Shown one piece after another: positions 12,560-64,000 of a DNA stretch of 64,000 nucleotides. Every line of letters begins with the position of its first letter. Position 1 is the first letter of the stretch. The notes under the pieces were generated by a model that saw only the letters and a program-made list of their open reading frames with translations, did not search any database and had not been told where the DNA came from. Position numbers and translations under genes: made by a program. The DNA comes from Peptococcaceae bacterium CEB3 (GTDB taxonomy: Bacteria; Bacillota; Desulfitobacteriia; Desulfitobacteriales; Desulfitobacteriaceae): NCBI GenBank assembly GCA_001029295.1, contig LDXJ01000064.1:496001-560000 (forward strand), given 5' to 3'.

Positions 12560-14092
12560 TTAAAGAGTATCGTTATCAGTCGTTTTCCGGGATTTTCTTT
12601 GGTGTAAAAATAAAGCGGAAATAATACCTAGCAATCCTAACATCGTGGAGATACCAAATGCATCCTGAAAAGCTGTTACAGAGGCTTGCTGTTGAAACAA
12701 GCTCACAACTTCATTTACACTCAATTGTCTTGATTGTGCCCATGTGTACCCGATGGATTGGAAATGAGCAGTCAGTTGTTGCAAAATAAGTGTGGTATCC
12801 GACCATGGGGTAGCCTTGTCCAGAAGGTTTTGCAGATAAACCGGGGTATACTGCTGAATTACACTGGTCAAAACAGAAACACCCAAGGCGCTGCCAAGTT
12901 GCCTTGCTAAGTTTAGAAAAGCAGAACCTTGGTTTACTAAGGGTTCGGGGAGAGAACCGTACGCTAAAGTTATTGACGGCATAATGCCTAGTCCCAGACC
13001 GCAGCCGATAATAAATAAATCCCTTTCGACCACATGAAGCTCTGTAAGAACCTGTATGTGGATTAAGGGATAAGACCCTAGCGACATAAGCAAAATCCCG
13101 ATGACTGTAAGTACAGATGCGCCGACTCGTGGGAGCACTACAGCGCTTACAGGAATGAATATTACGGCTCCAATAAACTCAGGTATCAATAGCATACCCG
13201 TTTCCACCGGTCCCAATGCTCTCAATTCTTGCATGAACAGAGGAATCAAAAACAAACTGCCGAACAAGGCTATCATGAAAAAAAACGTCGTAAAAATTGA
13301 GGCCACATAGATCCTGTTCCGGAAAATGTTTAAATTGAGGAGCGGCTCCGGATTTTGAGTCTCAACAATAAGAAACAGGGATAAAGAAATTCCCGCGACC
13401 AAGAGTAAAGAAACGATCTTAAAAGAACTCCATCCATCTGTGGGTCCGTTGGTAATGGCTAAGAATAAGGTGGCAAATCCTGTTCCGGAAAGAATAAATC
13501 CCCATAGGTCTAATTTTTTCTTAACGGTTGGGAATTCATTCAATAATATGTAGGAAAAGTATATTGCTAGTAATCCCAGCGGTAAATTGAGCCAGAATAT
13601 TCCCCGCCAATTTTGGTATTCAACCAGGTATCCCCCGACGGTTGGCCCTATGCTCGGTGCTAATAACAGAGGGATGCCCATCATTCCCATGGCCAAGGGC
13701 AGTTCTTTCTTGTCAAAGGTATTCTTGACAATTGATAAGGCTAACGGCATAATCATACCGCCGCCAATTGCCTGCAAAATTCGAAAAGAAATTAATGATT
13801 CAATGCTCCAGGCCAGCGCACTTGAAATGGAGCCGATTGTAAAAACCACAAGACTGATTAAATAAAGCTTTTTCATGCCATGAGTGTCTGCCCAATATGC
13901 TGTAATCGGTTCAAATAGCCCAATTGTGACCATATATGCCGTAACGATATATTGAGCGGAGTGAATATTTGCACCGAAGTCCATCATGATTTTGGGAATC
14001 GCGACATTAACAACCGTCATGTCTAACAGGTCCATGGATAGGCCCAAAGTAACAGCTATTAGAATCAGCCATTTCTGATATTTTACTAACAT
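12560..14092 (-). CDS. DHA2 family (EmrB/QacA) MFS drug exporter
   Basis: 510 aa with 14 predicted membrane helices, the DHA2 hallmark. Motif C-type and family signatures are visible: MDLLDMTVVNVAIPKI in TM1 (D-x3-vNvAlP), the loop motif A-like WADTHGMKKLYLI, FRILQAIGGGMIMP, and NWRGIFWLNLPLGLL. It exports hydrophobic cations or antimicrobials by proton exchange. AAGGAG lies 7 bases upstream of the ATG. It is a single gene, convergent with the Lgt-like gene; GC is lower than its right-hand neighbours, suggesting acquisition. Confidence 0.9.
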   Translation of the reverse strand: MLVKYQKWLILIAVTLGLSMDLLDMTVVNVAIPKIMMDFGANIHSAQYIVTAYMVTIGLFEPITAYWADTHGMKKLYLISLVVFTIGSISSALAWSIESLISFRILQAIGGGMIMPLALSIVKNTFDKKELPLAMGMMGIPLLLAPSIGPTVGGYLVEYQNWRGIFWLNLPLGLLAIYFSYILLNEFPTVKKKLDLWGFILSGTGFATLFLAITNGPTDGWSSFKIVSLLLVAGISLSLFLIVETQNPEPLLNLNIFRNRIYVASIFTTFFFMIALFGSLFLIPLFMQELRALGPVETGMLLIPEFIGAVIFIPVSAVVLPRVGASVLTVIGILLMSLGSYPLIHIQVLTELHVVERDLFIIGCGLGLGIMPSITLAYGSLPEPLVNQGSAFLNLARQLGSALGVSVLTSVIQQYTPVYLQNLLDKATPWSDTTLILQQLTAHFQSIGYTWAQSRQLSVNEVVSLFQQQASVTAFQDAFGISTMLGLLGIISALFLHQRKSRKTTDNDTL

Positions 14093-56674: not shown

Positions 56675-57748
56675 ATGCCTCAGCTATGGGGACGATCCCT
56701 GACGAAAGAGGAGTTGCGCCGTTACTGCGGCAGGATGGAACAACTGGCAGGCGTACGAAAACTGACGTATACCGAAGGCAAAGCGGCAGGGCTGGAAGGT
56801 GTTGAAGTGCGGACGGGGGGTGGTTTGCGCTTTGTGGTCCTGCCCGGTCGGGGTTTGGACATCGGCTCGGCGGAATTCAAGGGGGTGCCGCTCAGCTTCA
56901 TGACTCCGCTGGGGGAAGCGGGCGCCCAATATTTCGGAGCGGATGAAGAGGGCTTCGCGCGTAATTTTGGGGGAGGATTGCTGGTTACCTGTGGCTTAAC
57001 ACAGGTGGGTTCCCCAAATGAAGATGAAGGCAGGAAGCTGGGGCAGCATGGCGTAATCTCCAACACACCGGCGGAAAGAGTGTCCAGCGGAGCGCACTGG
57101 GAGGGGGAGGATTATATTCTGAGTGTCGGGGGCGAGGTAAGGGAAACATCCCTGTTCGAACCAAACCTCTTGCTCCGGCGCAGGATCTGGACGCGCTTAG
57201 GCGAAAATCGCCTATTCCTCGAAGATCAGGTCATCAATGAAAGTTTCTACCGGGTACCGCTGATGCTCTTGTACCATATCAATATCGGTTTTCCCATCTT
57301 GGACAAAGATTCTGTGTTGCTCGCGCCCAGCCGGGCCGTTGAACCCAGGGACGAGGCGGCCGCCCGGCTGCTGGAAAACCACAGAATTTATCGGCAACCC
57401 ACGCCGCATTTTCCTGATACGGTCTATTATCACGATCTGCGGGCCGACCCAGACGGTTGGGTTCGGGCGGCACTGGTCAATGAACGCTTAAGCATGGGTC
57501 TCTATGTTCGCTATGAACAGCATAACCTGCCTTATTTCGTACAATGGAAGTATACCAACCTCGGTAATTACGTGGCTGCTTTGGAACCGGCCAATTGCCA
57601 TGTGGAAGGCAGAGCTCGGGAGAGAGAACGAGGTACGTTGAGCTTCCTCGATCCTTGGGAGGAGAGAAAATTCCGTCTGGAAATAGGGGTGCTGGATTCA
57701 GAGCAGGCAATTCGGGCTTTTTTCCAGGGGAGTTCTTTTTCGCTATAG
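56675..57748 (+). CDS. DUF4432 / aldose 1-epimerase-like protein
   Basis: 357 aa. The galactose-mutarotase-like beta fold is indicated by VLPGRGLDIGSAEFKGVPLS (about 51-70), GGGLLVTCGLTQVGSPNEDEG, QHGVISNTPAERV, LYHINIGFPILDKDS and the late ALEPANCHVEGRARER (catalytic Glu in the E-P-x-N motif). These DUF4432 proteins are found in sugar-degradation loci and probably interconvert anomers of a sugar or sugar acid. GAAAGGATGA precedes the ATG. It is followed by a DeoR regulator. Confidence 0.85.
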   Translation: MPQLWGRSLTKEELRRYCGRMEQLAGVRKLTYTEGKAAGLEGVEVRTGGGLRFVVLPGRGLDIGSAEFKGVPLSFMTPLGEAGAQYFGADEEGFARNFGGGLLVTCGLTQVGSPNEDEGRKLGQHGVISNTPAERVSSGAHWEGEDYILSVGGEVRETSLFEPNLLLRRRIWTRLGENRLFLEDQVINESFYRVPLMLLYHINIGFPILDKDSVLLAPSRAVEPRDEAAARLLENHRIYRQPTPHFPDTVYYHDLRADPDGWVRAALVNERLSMGLYVRYEQHNLPYFVQWKYTNLGNYVAALEPANCHVEGRARERERGTLSFLDPWEERKFRLEIGVLDSEQAIRAFFQGSSFSL

Positions 57749-57819
57749 GGCCCGGGCGCAGGAAACTTTGCGTCCAATCGCCGACTTATTCGTATTTAAA
57801 TATTTTTCTAAAAAAACTA

Positions 57820-57900
57820 TTGACACAGAAACGTAAAAGACATAGAATAAACGAAACCAACCGAAACACCATTTACCGCAGATACGAACATAAACGAAAT
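57820..57900 (+). promoter_or_regulatory. Promoter and phased CGAAA repeats before deoR
   Basis: TTGACA (57820-57825), 17 bases, TAGAAT (57843-57848). CGAAAC occurs at 57852-57857 and 57862-57867, then CGAACA at 57885-57890 and CGAAAT at 57895-57900: two pairs each with 10-bp spacing, typical of DeoR-type operators on one face of the helix. Confidence 0.65.
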
Positions 57901-57957
57901 ACGCGCGTAGGCCCCAATGTGCGTATTCTCAATGGTAAAGGAGAAAGCAGGATATCG

Positions 57958-58731
57958 ATGTTATTCGCAAACGAACGGAAACAAAAGATCGTGGAGATCC
58001 TCGAACAGACTCCCTCCGTGAAAGTGGCGGAGTTGAGCAATCTTTTTCAGGTGTCTGAAGTCACGATTCGCCGGGATCTCCAAGAGTTGGACGAAGCGGG
58101 TGTGGTGAAGCGCATTCACGGAGGGGCCGTCAACTTGAGTTTGGCTTCGTTTGAACCCACTTTGACGGAAAAAGAAGAAGAATACATCGACGAGAAAAAG
58201 GCGATAGCCTCTGCCGCCTTGAAGTTGGTTGAGGAAGGGGACACAATTCTCCTGGACGCGGGTTCGACGACTTTTCAATTGGCCTGTCATTTGTCGACAA
58301 GCCTTTTCAAACAGCTTACGGTGGTGACCAACGCACTCAACATCGCCTGGGAGCTGGCCCGAATCGAGCATATAGATTTAATTCTTACCGGAGGTCAGGT
58401 TCGACACAATACATTGTCGTCCGTGGGCCCCATCGTAGGAAATACTTTACAGAGCCTGAATGTGGACAAGGTCTTCCTCGCCACCAACGGCCTGGATTGG
58501 GAAAAGGGTTTAACGACTCCGAACCTCTATGAGGCTCAGGCTAAGAAAGAAATGTTAAAAAGGGGGCGAAAAAGGATTGTCTTAGCCGATCACTCCAAGT
58601 TCGGACGGGCGTCTTTGGGCTGGATTTGCTCTCTGACCGATATCGATTGTGTCGTTACCGACACTGCTACAACTCCCCAACAAGTAACACGCCTAAGGGA
58701 TCTGGGGGTTGAGGTTATCGTCGCGGATTAG
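57958..58731 (+). CDS. DeoR family regulator of the sugar locus
   Basis: 257 aa from ATG 57958, the usual DeoR start; the long upstream frame is not used. HTH: RKQKIVEILEQTPSVKVAELSNLFQVSEVTIRRDLQELDEAGVVKRIHGGA (about 7-57). Sensor domain: EKKAIASAAL, LLDAGSTT, TNALN, LTGGQVR, FLATNGLD and ADHSKFGR. It probably binds the phased CGAAA repeats in its own promoter and is released by a phosphorylated sugar. The 1-phosphofructokinase-like gene follows after 49 bases. Confidence 0.92.
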   Translation: MLFANERKQKIVEILEQTPSVKVAELSNLFQVSEVTIRRDLQELDEAGVVKRIHGGAVNLSLASFEPTLTEKEEEYIDEKKAIASAALKLVEEGDTILLDAGSTTFQLACHLSTSLFKQLTVVTNALNIAWELARIEHIDLILTGGQVRHNTLSSVGPIVGNTLQSLNVDKVFLATNGLDWEKGLTTPNLYEAQAKKEMLKRGRKRIVLADHSKFGRASLGWICSLTDIDCVVTDTATTPQQVTRLRDLGVEVIVAD

Positions 58732-58772
58732 TTTTGAGCAGATTTTAGTTTCGAGCAGATTAGTTTTGAGGA
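58726..58772. repeat. Three tandem repeats at the deoR-kinase junction
   Basis: GATTAGTTTTGAGCA (58726-58740), GATTTTAGTTTCGAGCA (58741-58757) and GATTAGTTTTGAGGA (58758-58772). The first copy contains the deoR stop; the last supplies the GAGGAGG ribosome site of the next gene. Confidence 0.7.
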
Positions 58773-58780
58773 GGATTATC

Positions 58781-59722
58781 TTGGCAGCACCTACTGAACC
58801 TTTTGTCACAGTAACGCTAAATCCTGCTCTGGACAAAACTGTCCTTATTGAGAATTTCACCGTGGCCAGGACGAACCGTTCCCGCCTTCTTTCCAGTGAG
58901 CCGGGAGGAAAAGGGATCAACGTGGCCAAGATGCTGCATTCCCTGGCTTCTTCCGTCCTGGCCACCGGCTTTATCGCAGGCGCAAATGGCAAACGGATTA
59001 TCGCTGCTTTGGAGCAGAGGGGGGTGAGAACCGACTTTGTGGAGGTACCGGGCGAGACTCGAGTTAATCTCAAAATCGTGGACCCGGCTACGGGACATGA
59101 GACCGAGATCAATGAACCGGGTTTCACGGTCGCTCTGAGTCACATGCAAGCTATTGAGCAAAAACTGCGTCAACTGCTCCCGCGTGCCGAATTACTGGTT
59201 CTTTCCGGGAGTTTACCCCCGGGAGTAGGGCCAGACTTTTACGCAAACCTCATCCATTTAGCCCACGGCTTCGGCGTAAAGACCATTTTGGACACCGAGG
59301 GACAGGCGCTTAGGCTTGGCTTAGCGGCTCATCCCCTTTTGGTCAAACCGAATAAATACGAGGCGGAAATGCTCTTGGGCGAACCGATCGCAACTCCGGA
59401 AGCGGGGATGGGAGCGGCAATAAAGATTCTGGCCCTGGGAGCAGAGAACGCGGTGGTTTCTTTAGGGTCGCAGGGGGCGGTGGCAGCCAACGCCAAGGGC
59501 AGTGTCTATGCCTCTCCTCCCCAAATTGTAGTTCATAACAGCGTGGGGGCGGGAGATGCCATGGTGGGAATCTTGGCTAAGGCCATCGGTGAAGGCAAAG
59601 ATGTGCTTGAGGTGCTTCCGCAGGCTGTGGCCGCTGTCGCCGCCTTCCTGACAGCCCGCCGGGGCGAGGAGCGAGAAGAGCAGGAGCCAGTCAGAGAGAT
59701 TCACCCTATATTAGGGGTATGA
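58781..59722 (+). CDS. 1-phosphofructokinase/tagatose-6-phosphate kinase (PfkB family, FruK/LacC type)
   Basis: 313 aa from TTG 58781 with GAGGAGG ahead. FVTVTLNPALDKTVLIENF at the start, SEPGGKGINVAKMLHSL (about 39-55), LSGSLPPGVG, KPNKYEAEMLLGEP and the catalytic NSVGAGDAMVGI (Asp near 257) mark the hexose-phosphate kinase branch of PfkB. It phosphorylates fructose-1-P, tagatose-6-P or a similar ketose phosphate. Its position after deoR fits a fru/gat-like operon, but no PTS gene is adjacent; an ABC binding protein lies downstream instead. Confidence 0.88.
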   Translation: MAAPTEPFVTVTLNPALDKTVLIENFTVARTNRSRLLSSEPGGKGINVAKMLHSLASSVLATGFIAGANGKRIIAALEQRGVRTDFVEVPGETRVNLKIVDPATGHETEINEPGFTVALSHMQAIEQKLRQLLPRAELLVLSGSLPPGVGPDFYANLIHLAHGFGVKTILDTEGQALRLGLAAHPLLVKPNKYEAEMLLGEPIATPEAGMGAAIKILALGAENAVVSLGSQGAVAANAKGSVYASPPQIVVHNSVGAGDAMVGILAKAIGEGKDVLEVLPQAVAAVAAFLTARRGEEREEQEPVREIHPILGV

Positions 59723-59743
59723 CCGCATATCCGGCAGATTAGC

Positions 59744-59880
59744 CACATGGCAGAGAGGCTAATCATGCGTCGGGAAGATCAATCATATGTCAGAGAGGCT
59801 GATCATGTAATTGGGAAGAGCAATCATGTGTCAGACAGGCTGATCATGTTACGGGAATATTGGTCGTATGTCAGAGGGAT
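59744..59880. repeat. 40-41-bp tandem repeats (3 full copies and a partial fourth)
   Basis: Copies begin at 59744, 59784, 59825 and 59865. Each has a CATATGTCAGAGAGG-like head, GCTGATCATG (palindromic TGATCA) and a GGGAAGA tail. Units 1-3 differ at about 5-10 positions; unit 4 stops after GTCAGAGGGAT. The block sits between the kinase and the UroD-family operon, directly upstream of the latter, where regulators bind. It is not a CRISPR: no spacers differ from the repeats. Confidence 0.85.
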
Positions 59881-59954
59881 TCCGCAGATCTAAGGGGCTG
59901 CCTATTAATGCGAATAACTGACCTTCTTAGCGTTGGTCGGAGGGGGATGAAAAG

Positions 59955-60992
59955 GTGAATTCATACGAGCGTGCACTACTGACTTTGAATGGGGAAATAC
60001 CGGATCGGGTACCGACCTTTGAGCTGATGATCGACCCCGTCGTGCGGAGAGCATTATTGGGTGACAGCGAAGACTATGCCGACTTCTGCGAACAGGTGGG
60101 CCTGGATTTGGTGCTGACAGACACTCCATCCAAGCTTTATGCCGAGAAAGTTGTGGATGCGGCCAGCCGCACCATCGTTAACGAATGGGGTATTGTCCGC
60201 CGTTATAACGAGCAGATTGTCTCCGTGCCGCTGGAAGGACCGATTAAAGAAGCGGCTGATCTGAAAACATACAGGGCGCCCGACCCTTATGACGAAAGGC
60301 GTTACAGCCAGCTCAAGTCATTGCTCAAACGCTTTAAAGGTAAGAAACTGGTAGGGATGCACCTGCATGATTCTTTTAATTACCCGGCATACCTGAGAGG
60401 GATGGAACAACTCTTCATGGATCTGATCCTCGACCCGGACCTGGTACGGGGTTTGGTACGGATCTCCGTAGAGCATAACATTGCCATTGCGGAACGAGCT
60501 ATCGAATTGGGTGCAGACTTCATCATCCTGGGAGATGATTACGGCAGCAGCACAAGCACCCTCGTCTCACCCCAACACTTCCGGGAGTTTTTCATCCCGG
60601 GGCTGCAAGAGGTGGTAAGCGCAGTCAAGGCTAAGGGCGCCTTTTGTTTGAAACATTGCTGCGGTAATATCAACGGCATCCTCGACGACATGGTCGCTAC
60701 CGGCTTGGACGGCCTTCACCCCCTGGATCCCAGCGCAGGCATGGACATGGTGGCGGTTAAACAACGCTATCCCAATCTTACCGTCATGGGGGGAATTAAC
60801 TGTGCCGAACCTTTGACTGATTACAGCGCAGCGGAGCTCAGAGCCATGGCGCGTGACGTCATCGAGCGCACTGCGCCCGGCGGTCACTTCATCCTGGCTT
60901 CCAGCAATTCGATTCACAGCCAAGTCAAGCTGGAAAACTTCCTGGCTATGCAGGAGACGGTTCGCGAGTTCGGTAAGTATGACAATGGATGA
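59955..60992 (+). CDS. Uroporphyrinogen decarboxylase (URO-D) superfamily protein, probable methyltransferase-like
   Basis: 345 aa, GTG start with GGAGGGGGATG ahead. URO-D/MtaA-like TIM barrel: SYERALLTLNGEIPDRVPTFE (3-23), LGADFIILGDDYGSSTSTLVSP, the metal motif FCLKHCCGNI (H-x-C-G, about 233-242), GLDGLHPLD and GGHFILASSNSIHS. True HemE has a different N-terminus and lacks the HxCG, so this belongs with cobalamin/CoM-type methyltransferases; however, the third Cys ligand of MtaA seems replaced by Ser in ASSNSIHS. It is co-directional with a PfkB kinase and a class II aldolase, so it probably acts on a sugar or polyol derivative. Specific function unknown. Confidence 0.75.
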   Translation: MNSYERALLTLNGEIPDRVPTFELMIDPVVRRALLGDSEDYADFCEQVGLDLVLTDTPSKLYAEKVVDAASRTIVNEWGIVRRYNEQIVSVPLEGPIKEAADLKTYRAPDPYDERRYSQLKSLLKRFKGKKLVGMHLHDSFNYPAYLRGMEQLFMDLILDPDLVRGLVRISVEHNIAIAERAIELGADFIILGDDYGSSTSTLVSPQHFREFFIPGLQEVVSAVKAKGAFCLKHCCGNINGILDDMVATGLDGLHPLDPSAGMDMVAVKQRYPNLTVMGGINCAEPLTDYSAAELRAMARDVIERTAPGGHFILASSNSIHSQVKLENFLAMQETVREFGKYDNG

Positions 60993-61009
60993 TGGAGGAG
61001 AAAACCGTT

Positions 61010-61957
61010 ATGCCACAAGTAATGTCTTTTGGTATCTTGGTTGCGGATTTGCTGGCTTTTCCAGTCGATAAATATCCGGAAAGGGGCAAGTTGGTACTGG
61101 CCGACGAGATGCACATGTCCACGGGTGGAGGCGCACTAAACACCGCCCTGGCTCTGAAAAAGTTGGGCTTCAACTCAGCCGTAACCGGGCGGGTGGGTAG
61201 AGACGGCCCGGGCGATTATATTGTTGAGGCGTTGACGACAGCGGGGGTTGACGTGCAGGGGATTAAGCGTGACAAGGAAGCGGCAACGTCCAGTTGTATG
61301 GTCTTTGCGCACAGAGATGGCGAACGCAGTTTTATCTATTCTCATGGGGCCAATGCCCGCTTGATGGCAAAGGATGTAGATTTTGACGTTCTGGAGGAAT
61401 GCGAGGTCTTTCACGTCGGTTACGCGCTCGTTTTGCCGAAGGTGGACGGGCAGGCGGCAGCTGAGTTGTTGCAGCAGGTGAAGAAACGCGGCTGTGTGAC
61501 GGTGGTTGATACCGCGTGGGATCACGGGGGTAGGTGGATGGAAAGCATGGCGCCTTACTTGCCGTACACAGACATATTCTTACCCAGCCTCAACGAAGCC
61601 GAGACATTGAGTAAGAGAGCGGATCCGAGGGAAATTGCGAAATATTTTCTTGGATATGGGGTTAAGACAGTAGGTATTAAACTGGGCTCGCGCGGCTCCT
61701 ATGTTACGGACGGTAAGGAAGAGTTTCTTGTACCTCCCTTCAGTGCTGCTAGCGTCGACGGTACCGGTGCGGGTGATTCATATGTGGCAGGCTTTATCGC
61801 TGCTACCCTCAAAGGCTGGCCCCTGGATAAGGTGGCTACGTTTGCCAATGCGGTCGGTGCTCTGGCCACGACAGAGTTAGGTGCGACGGCCGGAGTAAGG
61901 GATATGGGGGCGACTTTAAAATTCATGGAAACGGCTGGGATGAGTGTGATCAAATAA
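61010..61957 (+). CDS. PfkB family carbohydrate kinase (ribokinase-like)
   Basis: 315 aa from ATG 61010, 8 bases after GGAGGAG; the ATGs at 60989-60992 overlap the UroD stop. STGGGALNTALALKKLGF (about 34-51), GRVGRDGPGDYIVEAL, LPSLNEAE and the C-terminal DGTGAGDSYVAGFIAA (catalytic Asp near 253) define a sugar kinase. It is more ribokinase/adenosine-kinase-like than the FruK-type at 58781, so the locus has two kinases that could act in succession. It overlaps the frame of, and follows, the UroD-like gene and precedes the aldolase by 17 bases. Confidence 0.9.
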   Translation: MPQVMSFGILVADLLAFPVDKYPERGKLVLADEMHMSTGGGALNTALALKKLGFNSAVTGRVGRDGPGDYIVEALTTAGVDVQGIKRDKEAATSSCMVFAHRDGERSFIYSHGANARLMAKDVDFDVLEECEVFHVGYALVLPKVDGQAAAELLQQVKKRGCVTVVDTAWDHGGRWMESMAPYLPYTDIFLPSLNEAETLSKRADPREIAKYFLGYGVKTVGIKLGSRGSYVTDGKEEFLVPPFSAASVDGTGAGDSYVAGFIAATLKGWPLDKVATFANAVGALATTELGATAGVRDMGATLKFMETAGMSVIK

Positions 61958-61974
61958 CGAAGGGATGATTAGTC

Positions 61975-62826
61975 ATGCCATTGGTATCGTTGGATCAAAT
62001 TGTGAAAACGCCGGGCCAGGGTTGGGCGGTGGGCGCTTTCATAACCTTCAACATGGAAACTACGGAGGCCATATTTGAAGCAGCCGAAGAAGAACGTTCG
62101 CCGTTAGTCATTATGATGTATTTGCCCTTCTTCCTCCGTCACGGTAAAGGGCTGGTGCCAATGGTCAAGGCTCTGGCTCAGGACGTCACGGTGCCTGTTT
62201 GCCTTCACTTGGACCATGGACAGAGTTTGGAACACTTGGAGCAAGCAATTAAGATGGGCTTTTCATCAGTGATGATTGACGGTTCGGCCCTGCCGGTGGG
62301 AGAGAATATTACGCTAACAAAAAAGGCAGTTGAGCTTGCCCACAGTTTCGGAGTGTCCGTTGAAGCGGAGTTGGGTCATGTCCCAGGTGGTGAGCAGTAT
62401 CTGGGTCAGGGGCAAATCGGCGAGCAGAAGTCTGATCCTGAGGTTGCAGGTCGTTTCTGCCAGGAAACGGGAGTTGATGCCTTGGCCGTAGCCGTGGGCA
62501 ATTTGCAAGGAGGGAAAGCTGGTTCAGCCCGCCTGGATTTTAACACGCTAACCGCCATCCGTAAGAGTATACCAAGTTTACTCGTGTTGCACGGGGGCAC
62601 CGCCCTTAATCCAGATGAAGTTCGCCAGGCTTTGGAAATCGGGGTCGATAAAATCAACTATTTCACGGAACTGCGTCGCGCTTATTCTAGGGGCTTACTA
62701 GACGGTATTGCCGGAGATCCGGAAACCACGGAGCCGGAGGCCTTGATGGCAAAAGCCGAATTATATGTAAAAAACGTGGTTAGGGAAAGAATTAGAGTGT
62801 TTGGAAGTTCTGGGAAAGCGGGGTGA
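61975..62826 (+). CDS. Class II fructose/tagatose-bisphosphate aldolase family protein
   Basis: 283 aa. Zinc and catalytic motifs: VCLHLDHGQSLE (Asp and His, about 79-86), MIDGSALPVGENI, VEAELGHVPGGE (about 134-145), ALAVAVGN, LVLHGGTALN with the C-terminal zinc His, and GVDKINYFTELR. It is a full-length member of the GatY/KbaY/Fba/IolJ group, splitting a ketose-1-phosphate or bisphosphate into DHAP and an aldehyde. The conserved QH-type neighbourhood of IolJ is not decisive, so substrate is open. Last enzyme of the UroD-PfkB-aldolase unit. Confidence 0.9.
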   Translation: MPLVSLDQIVKTPGQGWAVGAFITFNMETTEAIFEAAEEERSPLVIMMYLPFFLRHGKGLVPMVKALAQDVTVPVCLHLDHGQSLEHLEQAIKMGFSSVMIDGSALPVGENITLTKKAVELAHSFGVSVEAELGHVPGGEQYLGQGQIGEQKSDPEVAGRFCQETGVDALAVAVGNLQGGKAGSARLDFNTLTAIRKSIPSLLVLHGGTALNPDEVRQALEIGVDKINYFTELRRAYSRGLLDGIAGDPETTEPEALMAKAELYVKNVVRERIRVFGSSGKAG

Positions 62827-62876
62827 TATCGGATTAAGAAAGCCTATTGTACGCCGTTATCACAGGAGGTGGCTCG

Positions 62877-62900
62877 ATGAGTAATTTTATGTTTGTCTAG
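62877..62900 (+). CDS. Seven-codon leader ORF
   Basis: ATG AGT AAT TTT ATG TTT GTC TAG with an excellent ribosome site CACAGGAGGTGG 6 bases ahead. It sits 41 bases before the ABC binding protein start. It may be a translated leader or a leftover of a deleted gene. Confidence 0.3.
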   Translation: MSNFMFV

Positions 62901-62940
62901 TCGTATCGCGTATTTAATTTAAAAAGGGGGAGCACACATA

Positions 62941-64000
62941 ATGAAATTAAAGTGGAAGAAGGTTTTGTCCGTCGCAATCCTTCCAGTGCTTATGCTTTCT
63001 CTTGCGGGTTGCGGGGGAGCAAATACCGATTCAAGTGCATCTACTGCTAAACAGGTTACTATTCACGTGGCCTGTCAAGAACATCCCGATGTTGATGCCC
63101 TTAAAGAATTACTACCGTCGTTTGAAAAGCAATACGGTGTCAAGGTTGACCTTAATGTACTTCCTCAGCAACAATTAAACACCAAGGTTGAGATAGCTTT
63201 AGCATCGAACTCCAGCGACTATGATGTTATTATGATGGATGACATGCAGACAGCTCAATACGCTAAAGCAGGTTGGATTGTACCTTTGGATACTTTCATC
63301 AACAATACAAGTCTTACAAATAAAAGCAAATTTAATGAAAGTGACTTTCTAAAGGGGTTCCTCAAGGTATTAGCCGTAAACGGAACGCAGTATGCGCTTC
63401 CATTCTATGGTGAAAGTACAATGCTGTTCTACAACAAGGAGATGTTCTCAAAGGCTGGCATTTCGGCACCTCCCCAGAATATGCAGGAACTTGAGGCCGA
63501 TGCAGCCAAGCTCACGGGCAACGGGGTGTACGGAATTGCCCTGCGGGGTTCCAGGGACATCAACTGGTACCCATGGGCAGGCTTCTTGTTCGCCTTTGGT
63601 GGACACTGGCTTGATGCTAACGGAAAGCCGACATTGAATTCACCTGCTGCCGTACAAGCCACGCAACTCTATGGCAAGCTGATTTCAAAATACGGTCCTC
63701 CCGGAGGAGCGAGCTTTGATTGGAATCAGGTTCAACTATCTATGCAACAGGGTAAGGCGGCCATGATTATTGATGCAAGTAACTTTGGCCCTCGGCTCGA
63801 GGATCCGAAAGAATCTAAAATTGTTGGCAAGGTAGGGTTTGCTATGGTCCCGGCAGGTCCGGCAGGTCGTTTCCCCAGTGTTTATACAGCGGGCCTGGCA
63901 ATACCAAAAGGATCTAAACATCAGGCTGATGCGTGGAAGTTTATCGAGTGGGCAACGAGCAAACAAACCCAGTTGGAATCGGCCATGAAGGTTTCCCGTG
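62941..64000 (+). CDS. Sugar ABC transporter substrate-binding lipoprotein (family 1), partial
   Basis: 353 codons visible; the 3' end is beyond the window. Lipoprotein signal MKLKWKKVLSVAILPVLMLS followed by lipobox LAGC (Cys24). The solute-binding fold of the MalE/UgpB type is shown by YDVIMMDDMQTAQYAKAG, PLDTFI, YALPFYGESTMLFYNKEMF (about 153-171), WYPWAGFLFAFGG, GKAAMIIDASNFG and FIEWATSKQTQ. Ribosome site AAAGGGGGAG is 8 bases ahead. It should deliver the sugar or polyol used by the upstream kinases and aldolase; membrane components are expected just outside. Codon use is AT-richer than the aldolase. Confidence 0.92.
   Translation, partial: MKLKWKKVLSVAILPVLMLSLAGCGGANTDSSASTAKQVTIHVACQEHPDVDALKELLPSFEKQYGVKVDLNVLPQQQLNTKVEIALASNSSDYDVIMMDDMQTAQYAKAGWIVPLDTFINNTSLTNKSKFNESDFLKGFLKVLAVNGTQYALPFYGESTMLFYNKEMFSKAGISAPPQNMQELEADAAKLTGNGVYGIALRGSRDINWYPWAGFLFAFGGHWLDANGKPTLNSPAAVQATQLYGKLISKYGPPGGASFDWNQVQLSMQQGKAAMIIDASNFGPRLEDPKESKIVGKVGFAMVPAGPAGRFPSVYTAGLAIPKGSKHQADAWKFIEWATSKQTQLESAMKVSR

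Follow-up and report, generated by a model that had tools for sequence, protein, structure and literature searches.

A UroD-superfamily protein in a sugar operon of Peptococcaceae bacterium CEB3, a candidate methyl-sugar:corrinoid O-demethylase component

The UroD-superfamily protein encoded in a sugar kinase/aldolase operon of Peptococcaceae bacterium CEB3 is probably a methyl-sugar:corrinoid-protein methyltransferase, i.e. component I of an O-demethylase, acting ahead of the kinase/aldolase breakdown of its substrate. Direct observation covers the gene content of the operon, the family membership of its products, the statistics of their co-location and the presence in the genome of an acetyl-CoA synthase, of the reductive activase of corrinoid proteins (RACE) and of a pterin methyltransferase candidate. 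Methylated sugars occur widely in the polysaccharides of plants and microbes; no enzyme for their anaerobic demethylation was found in the open-access literature searched, and priority is not certain.

Gene content of the operon

The window, i.e. the whole stretch of 64,000 nucleotides analysed (C64:496001-560000), belongs to a genome of 5.3 Mb; the gene run extends about 5.4 kb beyond its edge and was followed in a stretch reaching past it (L009, in which window positions 57820..57848 are 1820-1848). The seven genes named by the sequence-only reading are all present, all on the + strand and all strongly matched by their families in a profile search with curated cut-offs, with slight corrections to the starts of the DeoR and FruK genes. 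The features are as follows; the matches from consensus scans do not in themselves indicate function.

5' of the DUF4432 gene: strong terminator-like stem (consensus scan only)
56675..57748, +: DUF4432 protein (PF14486, 333 bits), aldose-epimerase-like according to the sequence-only reading
57820..57848, +: strong promoter-like match TTGACA-17-TAGAAT before the DeoR gene (consensus scan only, 11/12)
57958..58731, +: DeoR-family regulator (PF00455, 175 bits; PF08220, 70 bits), likely start ATG 57958
58781..59722, +: FruK-type 1-phosphofructokinase (TIGR03828, 303.2 bits, above the cut-off of 292), likely start TTG 58781
59955..60992, +: UroD-superfamily protein, proposed component I (PF01208, 107 bits against a cut-off of 23.9)
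60989..61957, +: second PfkB sugar kinase (PF00294, 204 bits; no equivalog cut-off reached)
61975..62826, +: class II ketose-bisphosphate aldolase (PF01116, 264 bits; above the TIGR00167 cut-off)
62941..64000, continuing to L009:8245, +: ABC sugar-binding lipoprotein (PF01547, 191 bits)
L009 8293-9249 and 9332-10186, beyond the window edge: two sugar-ABC permeases
L009 10349-11416 and 11553-12602, beyond the window edge: two Zn-dependent dehydrogenases
L009 about 12794-13413, last in the gene run: frameshifted corrinoid-binding ORF

To judge from spacing and orientation, the gene run is likely one operon, in which the UroD and PfkB genes overlap by 4 bases; the opposite-strand genes that follow the corrinoid ORF resemble, by inspection, citrate lyase subunits. 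Literature searches returned nothing relevant on the function of DUF4432, whose gene also adjoins UroD genes in Moorella.

The search for nearby corrinoid proteins suggested by the sequence-only reading returned one, which closes the gene run at a distance of 7.9 kb from the UroD gene. The initial portion of this ORF lies in a different frame, and alignment with paralogues places the fault in a G run near L009:12874, which is one base short (GGG, against GGGG in L054); this deletion may be real or may be an artefact of the assembly. The nearest relatives of the ORF, 88-92% identical, are corrinoid proteins encoded elsewhere in the genome, in three further UroD clusters, and in the paralogous clusters the corrinoid genes are intact. 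Because of the deletion, the partner of the UroD protein would be either the product of the operon's own corrinoid gene, if the assembly is at fault, or one of these close paralogues. The distance between the two genes is not significant on its own; chance pairing is rejected only genome-wide, and it is therefore the wider pattern that carries the argument.

Pairing of UroD and corrinoid genes in the host genome

The host genome yields 41 URO-D matches and 35 matches to the corrinoid domain (B12-binding_2), these being matches and not genes, since a few genes yield more than one; for 32 of the 41 URO-D matches a corrinoid match is no more than 5 kb away, against 2.3 expected, and chance co-location is thus rejected at the scale of the genome. 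Many of these clusters read, by inspection, as sugar pathways, and the families have been confirmed for several: together with UroD and corrinoid genes are found an L-rhamnose isomerase and a rhamnulokinase-like gene (L047), a galactonate dehydratase and a member of the KDPG-aldolase family (L045), and a tagaturonate reductase with a TRAP permease (L055). The genome also holds the set required by a three-component system, namely acetyl-CoA synthase (one match), RACE (eight matches) and a pterin-binding methyltransferase candidate.

Some clusters, here and in other genomes, deserve separate mention. UroD genes occur in L-rhamnose clusters (isomerase, rhamnulokinase-like, mutarotase-like and aldolase genes) at L036, L047, L044, L076 and L080, and the UroD proteins of these five loci are the best candidates for substrate assignment. 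In two different genera (L055 1583-19477 and L038 1-8903), a TRAP transporter, tagaturonate reductase and altronate/galactarate-dehydratase-like genes accompany paired UroD genes, a gene set that represents a possible O-methyl-uronate route. Two near-identical pairs of UroD and corrinoid genes (L052 7196-9194 and L053 7139-9217), about 13 kb apart on one contig and with different neighbours, are a recent duplication. MttB-like proteins with corrinoid and RACE genes (L072 and L073, G000:C39) make up, by inspection, a separate methyltransferase set of quaternary-amine type in the same genome.

Distribution among Bacillota

With a profile built from 18 sugar-type UroD proteins and a threshold of E 1e-75 or better, the UroD clade was found in 44 of a sample of 398 Bacillota genomes. 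Of the 40 loci examined, 29 have the UroD gene no more than 5 kb from a gene for a sugar transporter, a kinase or an aldolase-type protein, a count that stands without a matched background and uses approximate gene classes, assigned by similarity to seeds; a corrinoid gene lies within 10 kb at only 10 of the 40. The UroD-PfkB-aldolase triad, whose recurrence the sequence-only reading had proposed to survey, does recur, in one other genome only (G354, at L091), where it is accompanied by ABC genes, a dehydrogenase and an intact corrinoid gene.

All 43 of the other carrier genomes contain a B12-binding_2 domain, against 317 of the 398 genomes in the sample, the latter figure including methionine synthases; its presence in 44 of 44 carriers has a chance probability of 2e-5 when relatedness is ignored. 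In 11 carriers the domain is matched a single time, and in all 11 a gene for RACE, a pterin methyltransferase or a UroD protein is no more than 5 kb away from it; RACE is the neighbour in eight, in four of them together with FolD (Pfam confirms FolD in L114 and L120; in L115 and L118 it was recognised by inspection). The arrangement of a sole corrinoid gene beside RACE and FolD looks as if it were a shared C1 hub; UroD genes without a linked corrinoid gene may share such a central one, which could explain why most of them are found unlinked. Among the loci read, the sole corrinoid-domain gene adjoins RACE in L114, L115, L118, L119, L120 and L121, four of which also have FolD and two NfnAB-like genes.

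The same figures bear on a different explanation, according to which the UroD protein works on the sugar without a corrinoid partner, e.g. as a decarboxylase, lyase or isomerase built on the same fold. Such an activity would suit the lack of a linked corrinoid gene at most surveyed loci and at all loci of direct orthologues, and HemE, which has this fold, needs no cofactor. Against it stand the occurrence of the corrinoid domain in every other carrier, the position of the single corrinoid genes and the genome-wide pairing in the host; moreover, the protein is far from HemE itself, scoring 22 bits against the TIGR01464 cut-off of 303. The N-terminal signature of HemE contains RQAG, and this is absent from the UroD protein; HemE identity, which the sequence-only reading had named as one outcome that would refute it, is therefore excluded. 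We regard a corrinoid-independent activity as unlikely.

Relationship of the UroD protein to MtaA

Membership of the URO-D superfamily is supported both by the PF01208 score and by the predicted model (pLDDT 91.9), which superposes on MtaA and HemE structures with Z of 31-33; the nearest is MtaA (PDB 4ay7; Z 33.2, 24% identity), with HemE at about Z 32. The MtaA and CmuA family cut-offs are missed (TIGR01463, 71.6 against 235 bits; NF040654, 59.5 against 400 bits). The columns of the MtaA His-x-Cys...Cys zinc triad align to H234, C236 and N318: the third Cys ligand is not replaced by Ser, as had been read from the sequence, the aligned residue being Asn318, which lies between Ser317 and Ser319. 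Cys236 itself is retained in the direct orthologues only, its place being taken by Asp in the nearest paralogues (L036 and L037). Across 18 related proteins D195, H234, G237, P256, G279 and G310 are invariant, and K269 is almost invariant. In a tree of 58 proteins (MtvB, OdmB, VdmB and MtoB not among them), the window protein and its orthologues cluster with the rhamnose-type proteins L036 and L037 (support 100/97), within a clade of 25 rows (96/99); the proteins with a complete His-x-Cys...Cys fall in a different clade. With its zinc triad incomplete, its scores below cut-off and its position in a separate clade, the protein is rejected as an MtaA-type thiol methyltransferase, and the earlier suggestion that its chemistry may differ from that of MtaA is supported.

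The same comparison weighs on the proposal that the UroD protein is a second-step methyltransferase, which, in the manner of MtaA, passes the methyl group of methyl-corrinoid on to a thiol or some other acceptor, while a separate protein demethylates the sugar. MtaA is indeed its nearest solved structure, the His-x-Cys pair is present, and several sugar clusters contain one MtaA-type and one sugar-type UroD. The Asn in place of the third ligand, the Asp of the nearest paralogues, the missed cut-offs and the separate clade of the complete proteins all argue against such a role, as does the window operon, whose single UroD gene is accompanied by no other candidate demethylase; the proposal is accorded a rather small probability.

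Orthologues and related loci

Only four direct orthologues were found, in Moorella stamsii and G421 (79% identity), in G061 (67%) and in an Oscillospiraceae MAG (54%). The Moorella orthologue has as neighbours DeoR, FruK, LacI, PfkB, a phosphomannose-isomerase-like gene, ABC genes, a second UroD of MtaA type and DUF4432; a DeoR-type gene adjoins the orthologue in Moorella and in L020, and FruK adjoins it in Moorella. No corrinoid gene was found within about 8-10 kb in the Moorella, G421 and G061 stretches, and none was evident among the ORFs of the Oscillospiraceae stretch. That the UroD gene is a passenger or a decaying remnant in an ordinary ketose or hexitol operon is very improbable: the corrinoid gene is frameshifted, and FruK and the aldolase would suit an ordinary ketose route, but the UroD frame is intact and overlaps the PfkB gene, and three other lineages have kept the protein, at 54-79% identity, beside these FruK and DeoR-type genes.

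Among more distant relatives, a paralogue of 34% identity in a Moorella-like genome (L036) is flanked by a rhamnose isomerase gene and a rhamnulokinase-like gene, the L037 cluster includes an intact corrinoid gene, and in Alkalibacter (L028) UroD genes adjoin a corrinoid gene; around distant matches in Lokiarchaea and other phyla (L021-L027), no sugar or corrinoid cluster is evident in the parts that were read. In the Moorella orthologue clusters the second UroD, with the full His-x-Cys...Cys, adjoins DUF4432 (L019 9976-11100 and L034 16532-17620), and one MtaA-type together with one sugar-type UroD is found in several clusters. In G061 the orthologue is followed by a family 31 glycoside hydrolase and an FGGY-type kinase (L035 14433-17876), hinting at a glycoside-bound substrate in that organism.

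Proposed pathway

For the window operon we infer the reaction, the partner protein, the order of the steps and the class of substrate as follows. The operon would serve to take up and degrade a sugar or sugar alcohol that is O-methylated; the UroD protein would bind the methylated sugar and offer its methyl ether to a Co(I) corrinoid protein, yielding the free sugar and methyl-corrinoid, from which a second methyltransferase would move the methyl group to tetrahydrofolate (the Wood-Ljungdahl route), while RACE would restore corrinoid that has become oxidised. The demethylated sugar would be oxidised by the dehydrogenases, phosphorylated by PfkB and then by FruK at the other end of the molecule, and cleaved, as a doubly phosphorylated sugar, by the class II aldolase. 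The presence of FruK suggests that a ketose-1-phosphate is an intermediate, and the second PfkB may therefore phosphorylate C1.

The sequence-only reading had left open whether a substituted sugar is demethylated or decarboxylated before cleavage: demethylation fits the corrinoid gene in the operon, frameshifted as it is, the genome-wide pairing in sugar clusters and the triad in another genome, while decarboxylation gains no support. Counting against component I are the frameshift in the operon's own corrinoid ORF and the lack of a linked corrinoid gene at the orthologue loci and at 30 of the 40 survey loci; in addition, the known enzymes act on aryl ethers, whereas a sugar ether, being an alkyl ether, has a poorer leaving group.

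Comparison with known systems

The UroD-superfamily O-demethylases MtvB, OdmB, VdmB and MtoB act on aryl ethers, and CdmB is a chloromethane methyltransferase that does not need zinc (PMC13222342). These proteins share with the system proposed here the superfamily, a corrinoid partner and the link to RACE, a pterin methyltransferase and the Wood-Ljungdahl route, and CdmB gives a profile match (E 1.7e-9). The system proposed here is set apart by its location in sugar operons, by a predicted substrate of the alkyl (sugar) ether type and by a corrinoid gene that in many cases is not linked. MtaA (PDB 4ay7) has the nearest fold and shares the His-x-Cys of the window protein; the latter, however, has Asn318 for the third zinc ligand, belongs to a clade that does not conserve Cys236 and scores below the family cut-offs. 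The Mlp clusters of anaerobic Firmicutes likewise combine UroD-superfamily and corrinoid proteins with RACE; Mlp proteins, however, are MtaA-like and act on methyl-sulfur or methyl-selenium compounds (PMC10418091), whereas the neighbours here are sugar transport and catabolism genes. With fructose (fruRK) and hexitol operons the window operon has in common the FruK equivalog, the ketose-bisphosphate aldolase and the DeoR-type regulator; it differs from them in the extra UroD and corrinoid genes, the second PfkB, the two dehydrogenases and uptake by an ABC system instead of a PTS.

Implications

As a tentative generalization, somewhat short of an even chance, the UroD clade across anaerobic Bacillota may consist of sugar-specific O-demethylases placed in ordinary sugar operons, all of them delivering to a corrinoid protein and activase that they share (one such protein may serve many UroD proteins in some genomes); this would be a modular, oxygen-free counterpart of the oxidative demethylation of methyl sugars, with a single molecule supplying glycolysis as well as C1 metabolism. 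If this is true, dozens of genes per genome labelled 'uroporphyrinogen decarboxylase' would acquire a testable function, corrinoid-dependent O-demethylation would extend beyond aryl ethers to those of sugars, and the substrate of each UroD protein would be predictable from the sugar pathway that surrounds its gene, e.g. O-methyl-rhamnose for L047 and L036.
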